Origin: Mesorhizobium erdmanii USDA 3471
GTDB taxonomy: Bacteria > Pseudomonadota > Alphaproteobacteria > Rhizobiales > Rhizobiaceae
Length of the DNA stretch: 64,000 nt
Direction of reading: 5' to 3'
NCBI RefSeq assembly: GCF_000472705.1
Contig: NZ_AXAE01000029.1
Location: 1 to 64,000, forward strand
Notes under the pieces: model-generated
The model's input: the letters and a program-made list of their open reading frames with translations, nothing else
The model's database searches: none
What the model was told of the DNA's origin: nothing
Translations under genes and position numbers: made by a program
Shown: positions 7,501 to 14,740 of the stretch, in pieces
Layout of the letters: each line of letters starts with the position of its first letter
Numbering within the stretch: position 1 is the first letter of the stretch

Positions 7501-7571
7501 AAATTTGCGGATCTTGCGGACGTGTTGAGGGTCGGACCAGAAAACCGTTGCGGCGCGATCTGCGGAAATCT

Positions 7572-7760
7572 ACGATGCTCGGGTGATGGTCCCCGCGCCG
7601 AAAGGCACGGGGTGAAAAGGGAACACGGTGAGACCCCGAGGGATCGAGACCGTGGCTGCCCCCGCAACTGTAAGCGGTGAGCAAGATCCGACATGCCACT
7701 GGCCGGCAAGGCTGGGAAGGCAGGATTGCGCTGAGACCCGCGAGCCAGGAGACCTGCCAT
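7572..7760 (+). promoter_or_regulatory. Cobalamin (B12) riboswitch
   Basis: The conserved landmarks occur in order: GGTCCCCGCGCCGAAAGGCA near the 5' end, AAAAGGGAACACGGTG, the B12 box GCCCCCGCAACTGTAAGCGG (about 7658-7677), GCCACTGG (7695-7702), GGGAAGGC and GAGCCAGGAGACCTGCC (7742-7758). It precedes the DUF1636 gene by about 40 bases. Adenosylcobalamin or a related corrinoid is expected to switch off the downstream transport operon. The short GC-rich stretch between 7760 and the GGGAGGAG ribosome site is the likely expression platform. Confidence 0.95.
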
Positions 7761-7797
7761 CACTGAGTTGACCGGACGGGGTGTGCCGGGAGGAGAC

Positions 7798-11246: not shown

Positions 11247-11726
11247 ATGGTTTCTGACGGCATAGACAGACTGGGATTTTTGATCCACGACGTGCAACGT
11301 CTGCTGCGCAAGCGCTTCGAGACGCGCGCCAGCGGGCTTGGCCTCTCGTCCGCGCAATGGCGCCTGATGGTGCGCGTCGCCAAGGAGGAGGGTGTTACCC
11401 AGGCCCGCCTCGCCGAATTGCTCGAAATCGAGCCGATCAGCGTTTCGCGCCTTGTCGACCGGATGGAGGAAGGCGGCTGGATCGAGCGCCGCGCCGACGC
11501 CGCCGACCGCCGCGTGCGCATGATTTTCCCGACCGCCAAGGCCAGCGCCGCCTACGCCGAGGTCAAGAGCCTCGCTGGCGAAGTCTATGAGGAATCGCTT
11601 ATCGGCGTTTCGCCGGAGGACCGCCGCGTCCTGATCAGGGCGCTCGACGTGATCGTGAAGAATCTGGCCGACGGCGAAGCTTCGTCGCTTGAAAAGATCA
11701 AGAATGCGGAAGGCGCGGCAGCATGA
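11247..11726 (+). CDS. MarR-family repressor of the EmrAB efflux operon
   Basis: A 159-residue protein with a standard MarR fold: GLSSAQWRLMVRVAKEEGVT, QARLAELLEIEPISVSRLVD (recognition helix) and the wing ADAADRRVRMIFPTAKA. It overlaps the EmrA-type gene by ATGA, so it is cotranscribed with the pump it probably controls. The 20-bp inverted repeat just upstream is the likely operator. The inducer is unknown; hydrophobic drugs or plant phenolics are typical for the family. Confidence 0.92.
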   Translation: MVSDGIDRLGFLIHDVQRLLRKRFETRASGLGLSSAQWRLMVRVAKEEGVTQARLAELLEIEPISVSRLVDRMEEGGWIERRADAADRRVRMIFPTAKASAAYAEVKSLAGEVYEESLIGVSPEDRRVLIRALDVIVKNLADGEASSLEKIKNAEGAAA

Positions 11727-12901
11727 ACGCGGTAGCAAAGGTCAACAAAAGCGCACCCGAGGTTGAAATGGAAGCGCCGGCACAGCCGGCTGCTGCTCCC
11801 GTTGCGGTCGCTCCTCCCCTGGAGCCGGTATCGGCGCCGAAGAAGAAGCGCCCCTTGGGCCGCTTCCTTTTGATGTTTGCCTTGCCGGCGGCGCTGATCA
11901 TCGGTGGCGGCTATGTCTGGGTGACCGGCGGGCGCTATCAGGAGACGGAGAACGCCAATCTGCAGCAGGCCAAGGTGTCGATCGCCTCGGACACGGCCGG
12001 CCGCATCGTTCAGGTCGCCATAGCGGACAATCAGGTGGTCAAGCAGGGCGATCTCCTGTTCGCCATCGACCCCGAGCCTTACCGGATCGCGCTTGCCCAG
12101 GCCGACGCCGCGGTTGCCGCCGCACGCCTCAACGTCGAGCAGCTGCGCGCTGCCTACAGCCAGTCGATGGCGCAGGAGAAATCCGCCAGCAGCGAGGTCG
12201 ACTATGCCCAGTCGCAATATGACCGAGCCGCCGATCTCGCGCAGAAGGGCATCAACGCCAAATCCTCTTTGGATCAGGCACGCAACGATCTCGACAAGGC
12301 AAAGCAGCAGCTTGCCGTTGCCGGTCAAGGCATCATCAGCGCCAAGGCCGCGCTCGGCGGCAATCCCGACATCGAAACCGACAAGCATCCAACCGTGATG
12401 TCAGCGCTCGCGGCACGCGACAAGGCCGCCTACGACCTAGCTCAGACCACGGTCAAGGCGCCGGCCGACGGCGTGATCTCTCAGGCCTCGTCCTTCAAGG
12501 TCGGCCAGTATGTCGGTTCCGGCACGCCGCTGTTTTCGCTGGTCGAAACCGGCGACACCTGGATCGATGCCAATTTCAAGGAAACCCAGCTCACCAATAT
12601 GCGGCCGGGCCAGAAGGCCGAAATTGTCGTCGATACCTATCCGGGCAGGACCTTCGAGGCGACGGTCAAGGCGATCGGGGCCGGAACGGGTGCTGAATTC
12701 TCGCTGCTGCCGGCTCAGAACGCGACCGGCAACTGGGTCAAGGTCACGCAGCGCATCCCGGTGCGCCTGGAACTGACCGATCCCGACGCCAGGATGGCGC
12801 TGCGCACCGGCATGAGCGCCAGCGTCTCCGTCGATACCGGCGTTGCACGTGGTTTTCCCGCCATATTCGGTCACGCCACGGCTGGCGAGGCCCCGCAGTA
12901 A
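11723..12901 (+). CDS. EmrA/HlyD-type membrane fusion protein
   Basis: A 392-residue protein. An alanine/proline-rich cytoplasmic N-terminus (~45 residues) is followed by one membrane helix (GRFLLMFALPAALIIGGGYV), a biotinyl-lipoyl-like segment (IASDTAGRIVQVAIADNQVV), an alpha-helical hairpin region (about 110-200) and a beta-barrel part with APADGVISQASSFKVGQYVG. It should link the inner-membrane EmrB transporter (13208-14740) to an outer-membrane channel. The start codon overlaps the MarR stop. A hairpin (CCCGC/GCGGG, 12913-12928) follows the stop, and a structured 306-bp gap separates it from emrB. Confidence 0.92.
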   Translation: MNAVAKVNKSAPEVEMEAPAQPAAAPVAVAPPLEPVSAPKKKRPLGRFLLMFALPAALIIGGGYVWVTGGRYQETENANLQQAKVSIASDTAGRIVQVAIADNQVVKQGDLLFAIDPEPYRIALAQADAAVAAARLNVEQLRAAYSQSMAQEKSASSEVDYAQSQYDRAADLAQKGINAKSSLDQARNDLDKAKQQLAVAGQGIISAKAALGGNPDIETDKHPTVMSALAARDKAAYDLAQTTVKAPADGVISQASSFKVGQYVGSGTPLFSLVETGDTWIDANFKETQLTNMRPGQKAEIVVDTYPGRTFEATVKAIGAGTGAEFSLLPAQNATGNWVKVTQRIPVRLELTDPDARMALRTGMSASVSVDTGVARGFPAIFGHATAGEAPQ

Positions 12902-13048
12902 GTCAGCAAAAGCCCGCGGACCAGCGGGTGGAAGTGGAGTTCAGGATTGGTCTGATGGGAGGAGTGGGAAGGATCAGCGCTCGGTTCGGGCTGCCTAGTG
13001 GCTTGGCCGAAATCTGAAATCTTCGACACGGACCCGTTGGTCCTCATG

Positions 13049-13165
13049 TTTCCGGGCGGCAGGCCTCCGCTAGAATAGAGACTTTCAATCGATGTAACCC
13101 CCACATCGATAATCGCGTCCCACCGCGACGAGGGTCTCTCGACGGAAGGCGTTGCCGCCCGGAAA
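13049..13165 (+). ncRNA. Candidate structured RNA between emrA- and emrB-type genes
   Basis: Hand pairing gives one nested structure. P1, 13049-13061 with 13153-13165, is 13 perfect pairs (TTTCCGGGCGGCA/TGCCGCCCGGAAA). P2, 13063-13069 with 13143-13150, has 7 pairs and one bulged A. P3 pairs AGAGAC 13077-13082 with GTCTCT 13134-13139. P4 pairs ATCGATGT 13088-13095 with ACATCGAT 13103-13110 around loop AACCCCC. P5 pairs TCGCG 13113-13117 with CGCGA 13124-13128 around loop TCCCAC. P3 closes a three-way junction carrying P4 and P5. A small hairpin GGACC-CGTT-GGTCC lies upstream (13030-13043), and TTTTT occurs at 13179-13183. It fills most of the 12902-13207 gap before the emrB start. It could be a regulatory leader, an sRNA (either strand) or a structured mobile repeat; I recognise no Rfam family. 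Confidence 0.5.
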
Positions 13166-13207
13166 CCCCGTGTACACGTTTTTGTTACCTGCTGGAAGTT
13201 CCGCATC

Positions 13208-14740
13208 ATGAGCACGCCAGAATCATTTCGAGAAGTGCCGCATCGCGGCCTGATCACGGTTGCGCTCATGCTGGCGACGGTCATGCAGGCGCTCGACACG
13301 ACCATCGCCAACGTCGCCCTGCCGACCATGGCAGGCGATCTCGGCGCCTCTCCGGACAACATCAACTGGGTGCTGACTTCCTACATCGTCGCCGCCGCCA
13401 TCATGACGCCGGTCACCGGCTGGCTCGCCGACCGCTTCGGCCGCAAGGAATTGTTCCTGATGGCTGTGGTCGGCTTCACCATCTTCTCCATGCTGTGCGG
13501 CCTGGCATGGAGCCTTGAAACCATTGTGCTGTTCCGGCTGATGCAAGGCGTGTTCGGCGCCGCGATCGTGCCGCTGTCGCAGACCTTCCTGCTCGACATC
13601 AATCCCAAGGAGCGTCACGGCCAGGCCATGGCCATCTGGGGCGCCGGCATCATGCTGGGACCGATCCTGGGTCCGACGCTGGGCGGCTGGCTGACCGACA
13701 ACTTCAACTGGCGCTGGGTGTTTTTCATCAACCTGCCCGTCGGCATCGTCGCCTTCCTTGGCATGGCCGCCTATCTGCCGGTTGTTGCCCGCCGTGTGCG
13801 CAGCTTCGATTTCTTCGGCTTTGCCATGATATCGCTCGGCGTCGGCGCGCTGCAGCTGCTGCTAGACCGCGGCGGCGAGGTCGACTGGTTTTCCTCGGTC
13901 GAGATCTGGATCGAACTCGGCTTGGCCATCACCGGCTTCTGGGTGTTCATCATTCACACGGTGACGGCGGAACATCCCTTTATCGACCCCAAGATATTCC
14001 GCGACCGAAACTTCGTGACCGGCCTGGCATTCATCTTCGTCATGGGTGTGCTTATCCTGGCCTCGATGTCGCTGCTGCCGCCAATGCTGTCGACCATTTT
14101 CGGCTATCCGACTGTCACCATCGGCATCGTCATAGGCCCGCGCGGTGTAGGCACGATGATTTCGATGCTCGTCGTCGGTCGGCTCATGGGCAAGATCGAC
14201 GCCCGAATTCTGGTCGTCATCGGCTTTCTGCTGACCGCGCAGTCGCTCTACACCATGGCCAGCTTCACCCCGCAGATGGATAACTGGCTGATCCTCAGCT
14301 CCGGCGTCATCCAGGGCCTGGGCATGGGAATGGTGTTCGTGCCGCTGTCCACGGTTGCCTTCGCCACGCTCGACGCACGCTACCGCACCGATGCAACCTC
14401 GTTGTTCAGCCTGGTGCGCAATCTGGGCTCGTCGATCGGCGTATCTGTGGTCACGGTGCTCCTGGTGCGCAACACGCAGATCAACCACGCCGAGCTTTCA
14501 GCCTTCATCAACCCGTTCAATCCCAATCTCTGGGCGGTCTCGCCGGCGGCCGCGGGCGGCAATCCGATGGCGCTGTCGGAGGTCGACCGCATGGTCAATC
14601 TCCAGGCGATGATGATCTCCTACGTCAACGACTTCAAAATACTGATGATGATGACGCTGCTCGCCATTCCGTTCGTGTTCCTGCTGCGCAAGCCGGCGCG
14701 GGCCCCAGCCGGTGGCGCGCCCGCAGCGCATATGGACTAG
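13208..14740 (+). CDS. EmrB/QacA-type 14-helix MFS drug efflux transporter (DHA2)
   Basis: A 510-residue inner-membrane proton antiporter. DHA2 signatures are clear: MQALDTTIANVALPTMAGDL, NINWVLTSYIVAAAIMTPVT, WLADRFGRKELF (motif A), GPILGPTLGGWLTDNFNWRW (motif C) and FFINLPVG. It works with the EmrA-type protein encoded just upstream under the MarR repressor. ATG 13208 follows GGAAG at 13194-13198. Unlike the tight marR-emrA overlap, the emrA-emrB gap is 306 bp and highly structured, so emrB may be controlled separately. Confidence 0.93.
   Translation: MSTPESFREVPHRGLITVALMLATVMQALDTTIANVALPTMAGDLGASPDNINWVLTSYIVAAAIMTPVTGWLADRFGRKELFLMAVVGFTIFSMLCGLAWSLETIVLFRLMQGVFGAAIVPLSQTFLLDINPKERHGQAMAIWGAGIMLGPILGPTLGGWLTDNFNWRWVFFINLPVGIVAFLGMAAYLPVVARRVRSFDFFGFAMISLGVGALQLLLDRGGEVDWFSSVEIWIELGLAITGFWVFIIHTVTAEHPFIDPKIFRDRNFVTGLAFIFVMGVLILASMSLLPPMLSTIFGYPTVTIGIVIGPRGVGTMISMLVVGRLMGKIDARILVVIGFLLTAQSLYTMASFTPQMDNWLILSSGVIQGLGMGMVFVPLSTVAFATLDARYRTDATSLFSLVRNLGSSIGVSVVTVLLVRNTQINHAELSAFINPFNPNLWAVSPAAAGGNPMALSEVDRMVNLQAMMISYVNDFKILMMMTLLAIPFVFLLRKPARAPAGGAPAAHMD

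Follow-up and report, generated by a model that had tools for sequence, protein, structure and literature searches.

A conserved structured element related to a dispersed palindromic repeat lies in the adaptor-pump gaps of two Mesorhizobium efflux operons

Introduction

Short repeats that have been captured in efflux-pump transcripts, and RNA structures that divide a message into segments of different stability, are the systems closest to the locus described here. The transcript of the mtrCDE pump carries a Correia repeat, and the available part of the report on this system describes RNase III cutting the mRNA at the terminal inverted repeats of the element (PMC10969869). In Escherichia coli, according to the accessible text of another report, RNA structures shape the unequal decay of operon segments (PMC5927463). 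Several families of bacterial palindromic repeats are likewise described in the sources at hand. They include Bru-RS1 and Bru-RS2 of Brucella, which are palindromic repeats 103 and 106 bp long (PMC10800456), the RIMEs, which are rhizobial intergenic repeats of unknown function with a conserved secondary structure (PMC2573895), and the REP elements, defined as palindromes of 20-40 bp present at high copy number (PMC3733652). The available text of two surveys of Sinorhizobium meliloti sRNAs indicates that repeat-bearing spacers were excluded (PMC2245857, PMC2573895), so that an RNA of such origin would be passed over there.

We analysed a 64,000-nucleotide stretch of the genome of Mesorhizobium erdmanii USDA 3471 (the window), for which an initial annotation had proposed a multibranched RNA-like structure between two efflux genes. 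Literature searches on intergenic mosaic elements, Bru-RS and CIR repeats, palindromes and MITEs of Rhizobiales, Mesorhizobium sRNAs, emrAB and riboswitches, and intercistronic efflux mRNA, mostly in sources outside subscription journals, retrieved no entry that describes the element.

Results

A structured element between emrA and emrB

The locus comprises three genes on the forward strand of the window. An open reading frame matching a MarR-family regulator model (11247-11726) is followed by an emrA-like periplasmic adaptor gene (11723-12901) and an emrB-like MFS pump gene (13208-14740). The pump gene product scores above the cut-off of TIGR00711 and that of the adaptor gene above the cut-off of RND_mfp, the name EmrA being taken from its best model, the subfamily model TIGR00998, which it matches below the curated cut-off. 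The end of emrA (12901) and the start of emrB (13208) are separated by 306 bp. Alignment of this gap across the genus revealed a conserved purine-rich block on the forward strand (12944-12979), which is independent of the structured element, a form of it being retained in genome G003, where the gap lacks the element. A short open reading frame starting from the ATGGG of this block is not conserved, with the start present in 43 of 92 emr regions and lengths that vary, and comparison of the upstream regions did not identify the block as a consistent partner of the element loops. Viral contigs were also searched for EmrB relatives, and none were found. Elsewhere in the window, a search with Rfam at gathering score identified only a cobalamin riboswitch (RF00174, 134 bits) at 7570-7774 on the forward strand, downstream of which lies a run of same-strand open reading frames that look transporter-like on inspection.

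Folding of positions 13030-13183 with RNAfold yielded a minimum free energy of -75.6 kcal/mol, as compared to -47.6 (sd 4.3) for shuffled sequences (z -6.49), and none of 200 shuffles folded as well. The structured element itself spans 13048-13167 on the forward strand, as defined by RNAfold and by a covariance-model match of 127 bits, and the five nested helices described in the initial annotation are all present. The perfect 13-bp closing stem, P1, pairs TTTCCGGGCGGCA (13049-13061) with TGCCGCCCGGAAA (13153-13165). Within it, P2 pairs 13066-13069 with 13143-13146, as read from the sequence and with its columns included in the covariation count, and P3, detected by RNAfold and covariation, pairs 13078-13086 with 13130-13138. 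The two remaining helices are hairpins with C-rich loops. P4 (13088-13110) has a stem formed by 13088-13095 and 13103-13110 and a nearly invariant AACCCCC loop (13096-13102), and P5 (13113-13128) has a stem formed by 13113-13117 and 13124-13128 and a TCCCAC loop (13118-13123) that is found in 132 of 136 distinct elements. The same annotation had placed an extra hairpin before the element and a T-run after it, and both are there: the former is a separate small hairpin, GGACCCGTTGGTCC, at 13030-13043, which belongs to the emr-gap consensus and not to the RND-gap consensus, and the latter lies at 13179-13183.

Distribution and genomic context

A second copy of the element, 74% identical over 126 bases, was identified in the same genome. 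Its flanking genes code for a periplasmic adaptor (scoring above the RND_mfp cut-off) and an AcrB-type RND pump (Pfam ACR_tran), and a TetR-type regulator gene lies ahead of them. With the 306-bp gap as query, matches were obtained in 32 of 61 genomes, all from one genus, and 21 second copies were listed among them, of which 20 were used and that of G035 was left out. A set of 49 elements (29 from emr gaps and 20 from rnd gaps) served to build a covariance model, R1; the element of L028, which has a partial P1 5' arm and scores 85 bits, was excluded from the corresponding alignment (A1) and model and included in a later one (A5). Within the M. erdmanii USDA 3471 genome, R1 matched just two places at E<=10, each of them also on the reverse strand.

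Across the genus, R1 matched 134 of 146 genomes at E<=0.001, the weakest being diverged elements or the match in G760, and 30 among the matches listed became loci. G760 presents an R1 match at 7.1e-4, yet its emr gap (0 nt) and its RND gap (34 nt) both lack the element. In a sample of the family, 15 of 297 genomes matched at E<=0.1, with 10 of these outside the genus, and in a sample of the order 13 of 397 genomes matched, with 4 outside the genus. The best score outside the genus was 55.5 bits, versus 98-138 bits for the P5-bearing elements among the matches listed or aligned, and all 29 of the weak outside matches that were read, from a total of 47, correspond to a dispersed repeat discussed below. 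An exact-pattern search of one genome per species (84,980 species) returned 110 stretches. Among the 80 for which a taxon was established, 77 belong to Mesorhizobium, two to an unclassified "Bacterium" and one to a Hyphomicrobiales MAG, and the last three are G025 and G007, of the same genus.

The P5-bearing element lies in an adaptor-pump gap and on the mRNA-sense strand in all 189 stretches that contain it. These stretches, which include the 30 pattern stretches beyond the 80 with a named taxon, repeat some genomes and represent 136 distinct elements (93 emr and 43 rnd). Their flanks are emrA and emrB in 136 stretches and MFP and RND genes in 48, with one gene of the pair visible in the other 5. 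The distance from the element to the pump start ranges from 36 to 305 nt in emr gaps and from 42 to 179 nt in rnd gaps, and the middle values of the distance from the adaptor stop to the element are 145 nt and 35 nt, respectively.

The initial annotation had pointed out that operons of this kind normally present almost no space between adaptor and pump genes. EmrB and the RND pump were looked for in thirty genomes, including 18 members of the genus with absent or weak R1 matches. Eleven of the 13 emrA-emrB gaps that lack the element span 0-52 nt, the other two being of 74 and 122 nt, so that the statement holds as a rule. Inside the genus, these gaps measure 0, 0, 27 and 74 nt, with 122 nt in G003 and 2 nt in G796, the last of which adjoins a distant EmrB (52%), and the seven gaps from other genera measure 4-52 nt. 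Among MFP-RND gaps, three closely related ones that lack the element are of 34 nt, and the remaining RND matches, being distant pumps (39-45%), were excluded from this count. The junction in the 122-nt gap of G003 (L246) resembles a deletion between short repeats (GGA), as though the emr copy had been lost naturally, and the same genome keeps a diverged element in its RND gap (L267). The emr gap of G003 hence indicates that the element is dispensable at least there.

Diverged elements were identified in the emr gaps of L248, L249, L252 and L257-L261 and in the RND gaps of L267, L289, L075 and L095. All twelve keep a sense-strand C-rich hairpin loop and an outer GC-rich stem and differ in the inner stems; L252 has, in place of P3, a different stem that is still paired. 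L248, missed by R1, was assigned from a C-rich loop and the structure given by RNAfold, and the assignment of L249 is weak, at 24.4 bits versus 25.0 bits for the reverse strand.

Relationship to a dispersed repeat

The weak matches in other genera are palindromes of about 100 bp, with similar outer arms and P1-P4 helices, and without P5, which is absent from all 30 dispersed repeats that were aligned. An alignment of 24 repeat sequences revealed compensatory change in 20 of 33 pairs. A sequence-only profile was built from 23 repeats of other genera, with the Mesorhizobium repeat excluded, and produced 103 matches at E<=1 in 113 stretches (825 kb). Matches to the pump elements reached E-values as low as 7e-11, and the best match in the reversed-sequence control had an E-value of 0.91. 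The repeat model, R2, matched the copy in the window at E 1.5e-4, and in the order sample it matched 78 of 397 genomes (in five cases the source of sequences used to build R2) and 49 of 141 genera at E<=0.001. Copy number reaches at least 10 per genome, with up to 10 copies among 10 scored candidates. Classified with a rough open reading frame rule, 30 repeats lie between convergent (9), divergent (5) or tandem genes (14, of which 5 in sense and 9 in antisense orientation), or at sequence edges (2). In G522 and other R2-matched genomes, several copies of the repeat, of about 100 bp, are located at contig ends, as if a high-copy element caused assemblies to break there. A search of 72,556 plasmid records with one repeat copy returned no match at E<=0.001.

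The M. erdmanii USDA 3471 genome does not carry the repeat in multicopy or dispersed form: the only two copies are those in the adaptor-pump gaps. A third copy was detected in three Mesorhizobium genomes (L104, L306, L311 at 1501-1600), 33-35 kb from the RND copy and antisense to its two flanking genes, one of which looks like an ABC substrate-binding protein gene. Overall, sequence homology supports the notion that the pump element descends from a dispersed, palindromic repeat of about 100 bp of the Hyphomicrobiales. The possibility that the structure is merely a dispersed repeat, which had been raised together with its first description, is borne out for its relatives, dispersed in other genera, but not for the P5-bearing form, found exclusively in adaptor-pump gaps. 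Homology to the repeat combined with this exclusive siting means that the objection applies to the ancestry of the element and not to its present use.

Other repeat families were also considered. An assignment to the REP elements was ruled out, given that the Mesorhizobium element is about 120 bp long and has two copies in the genome. CcrM-associated repeats (CIR) contain a conserved GANTC site, and were rejected as well, with GANTC found in 3 of 30 repeats and, at positions that differ, in 10 of the 136 distinct elements. An indirect comparison with RIMEs, which are carried by the S. meliloti pSymB, was made by searching this replicon with R2, and nothing convincing was retrieved (best E 0.37).

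Sequence conservation and covariation

Mean pairwise identity was computed for each class of sites over 89 emr and 41 rnd loci. In both, the highest values within the element are those of the loops, with identities (emr and rnd, respectively) of 0.994 and 0.975 for the P4 loop and of 0.996 and 0.976 for the P5 loop. Paired positions follow with 0.948 and 0.888, and other unpaired positions of the element show 0.731 and 0.762. Outside the element, identity is 0.669 and 0.736 in the upstream spacer, 0.841 and 0.675 in the downstream spacer, 0.799 and 0.762 at the third codon position of the pump gene, and 0.982 and 0.953 at its first and second positions. These figures bear on the idea that the element is a passive remnant of the palindromic repeat, inserted by chance in two adaptor-pump gaps and conserved through recent spread or gene conversion. 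The wide dispersal of its relatives in mixed gene arrangements, and the third, antisense copy in another context in three Mesorhizobium genomes, would fit such an origin. It is disfavoured, however, by the identity comparison, in which the conservation of loops and pairs far exceeds that of spacers and third codon positions at both loci, and by the sense-strand G-U bias described below, and we regard it as very unlikely.

Compensatory changes at paired positions, which had been put forward as a check on the proposed structure, were found. Among 55 elements, including five diverged ones, two-sided changes affect 17 of 38 pairs, versus a shuffled mean of 5.6 and with none of 500 shuffles as high, although the significance of this pair count arises with the diverged members, whose alignment was fitted to the model. 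The same elements present 64 two-sided cells, versus 23.5 after shuffling (0 of 500 as high), and controls in which the register was slid gave 3-9 pairs with two-sided changes. For the 49 closer elements, the pair count is weaker (5 of 38, reached by 43 of 500 shuffles) and not unusual, and the number of two-sided cells is 37, as compared to 16.3 in shuffles (0 of 500 as high).

If the strand that matters is that of the mRNA, G-U mismatches are expected to be tolerated more than A-C mismatches. The aligned elements contain 408 G-U versus 78 A-C cells, distributed over 24 and 13 of the 38 columns. Parsimony on the gene trees assigned 61 changes from Watson-Crick pairs to G-U, 36 to A-C and 37 to other mismatches, with 37 returns to Watson-Crick from G-U versus 3 from A-C. 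Counted as events, the sense bias is therefore modest (61:36). The dispersed repeats are without a G-U bias, with 16 G-U and 27 A-C cells in a hand count.

Two-sided changes in a palindrome could also arise at the DNA level, and covariation as such cannot separate the two. An element operating as DNA, be it a cruciform or a protein-binding palindrome acting on transcription or on the nucleoid, would be in line with the palindromic outer arms. The sense orientation of the adaptor-pump copies examined and the excess of G-U over A-C on the mRNA strand argue against it, making this an improbable account. Compensatory pairs, purifying selection, the sense bias and the matching position in two unrelated operons support the original suggestion of a conserved cis-acting RNA element of the pump operon.

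Regulatory signals around the element

A search of positions 12880-13230 against Rfam 15, which includes the ykkC guanidine riboswitches, returned no matches at E<=5, in agreement with the earlier remark that the fold does not resemble known transporter riboswitches. A terminator scan identified two sites in the region, with 0.4 expected, and flagged the small hairpin at 13030-13043 as terminator-like. The same scan found no intrinsic terminator after P1 of which the T-run would form part, and the T-run is absent from the consensus of 23 RND gaps. No match to an E. coli-type promoter, as defined by an E. coli-type consensus, was detected in 12850-13260. The proposed complementarity between the P5 loop and an upstream GTGGGA is present in the window, with GTGGGA at 12964-12969, but the pairing is not conserved: GTGGGA occurs in 32 of 92 emr and in none of 43 rnd upstream regions, and was hence discarded as a general feature. 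The shorter GGGA is found in 88 of 92 emr versus 3 of 43 rnd upstream regions.

A multibranched fold with nearly invariant loops, located upstream of two pump genes, could be construed as a ligand-sensing riboswitch or attenuator. We deem this hardly probable. Besides the lack of Rfam matches and of a terminator after P1, the element stands at distances from the pump start that leave no fixed expression platform visible, and its descent would be from a dispersed repeat. The drug- or metabolite-sensing leader envisaged by the initial annotation thus finds no support in these searches.

The element might alternatively be processed from both pump messages into an sRNA, with its C-rich loops pairing with G-rich, Shine-Dalgarno-like sites in other mRNAs and linking efflux to other genes. 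The conservation of the loops in both operons, their location on the sense strand in the adaptor-pump copies that were examined, and the variable distance between element and pump start are all compatible with this proposal. The promoter and terminator searches, on the other hand, yielded neither signal, and the RND copy is preceded by a short spacer that shows little conservation. On balance, such an sRNA seems unlikely, if less so than the alternatives considered above.

Discussion

Comparison among genomes supports the fold of the element, its conservation, its sense bias, its presence at two sites and its homology to a repeat. The explanation that we favour, with roughly even confidence, is that of an mRNA element located between cistrons, with its origin in a dispersed palindromic repeat, that would set the output of the pump relative to that of the adaptor and whose loops would bind a factor in trans. 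Its source would be the palindromic repeat of about 100 bp dispersed in the Hyphomicrobiales. In Mesorhizobium, the element would have become fixed in the adaptor-pump gap of EmrAB-type MFS and RND operons, in a form having a fifth hairpin, P5, that the repeats lack. Its long, GC-rich helix could split the polycistronic message, either through cleavage by RNase III or RNase E or by posing a barrier to exonucleases. The adaptor and pump mRNAs might then decay separately, leading to unequal amounts of the two products. The two nearly invariant C-rich loops may bind a common trans factor, a protein or an sRNA, adjusting both pumps.

The variable distance between element and pump gene and the lack of a terminator after P1 speak against a riboswitch with a fixed platform, and fit an element that works on its own in mRNA processing or stability. 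Invariant loops, on the other hand, are more than a plain decay barrier calls for, which is why a trans factor is proposed, although no partner of the loops was found. Other observations that weigh against a processing element are the emr gap of G003, which lacks it, the modest bias in events and the antisense third copy in three genomes. A more tentative and rather doubtful extension is that the domesticated selfish repeat defines a two-operon, post-transcriptional efflux regulon, in which a dedicated loop-reading factor, such as an RNA-binding protein or a G-rich sRNA, would shift the pump-to-adaptor ratio under stress.

The element offers a clean case for asking how repeats become regulators and how the ratio of adaptor to pump is set within a single bacterial operon. 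A natural comparison strain is G003, which has an emr gap without the element and an RND gap with a diverged one.

Among palindromic repeats, the closest relative is the R2 repeat, which has in common with the pump element the outer arms (GTTTCC..GGAAAC), helices P1-P4 and homology over the full length of the sequence. Unlike the pump element, it lacks P5, reaches at least 10 copies in some genomes and appears in mixed contexts and orientations. Bru-RS1 and Bru-RS2 resemble the repeat in being palindromic and of similar length, a likeness that refers to their description in the available text (PMC10800456). The RNA structures that shape mRNA decay in E. coli are like the action proposed here, but are generally located inside coding regions, and the accessible part of that report does not mention an origin from repeats (PMC5927463). 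The Correia element of the Neisseria mtrCDE operon, a MITE, is also a short repeat captured in an efflux-pump transcript (PMC10969869), and would be the nearest precedent in terms of its mode of action. It sits just downstream of the promoter, whereas the Mesorhizobium element lies between adaptor and pump genes, and the available account of it makes no mention of nearly invariant C-rich loops or of two unrelated pump operons (PMC10969869). In the lineage studied here, such a repeat seems to have been converted into a conserved structured RNA, at a matching position in two unrelated efflux operons.
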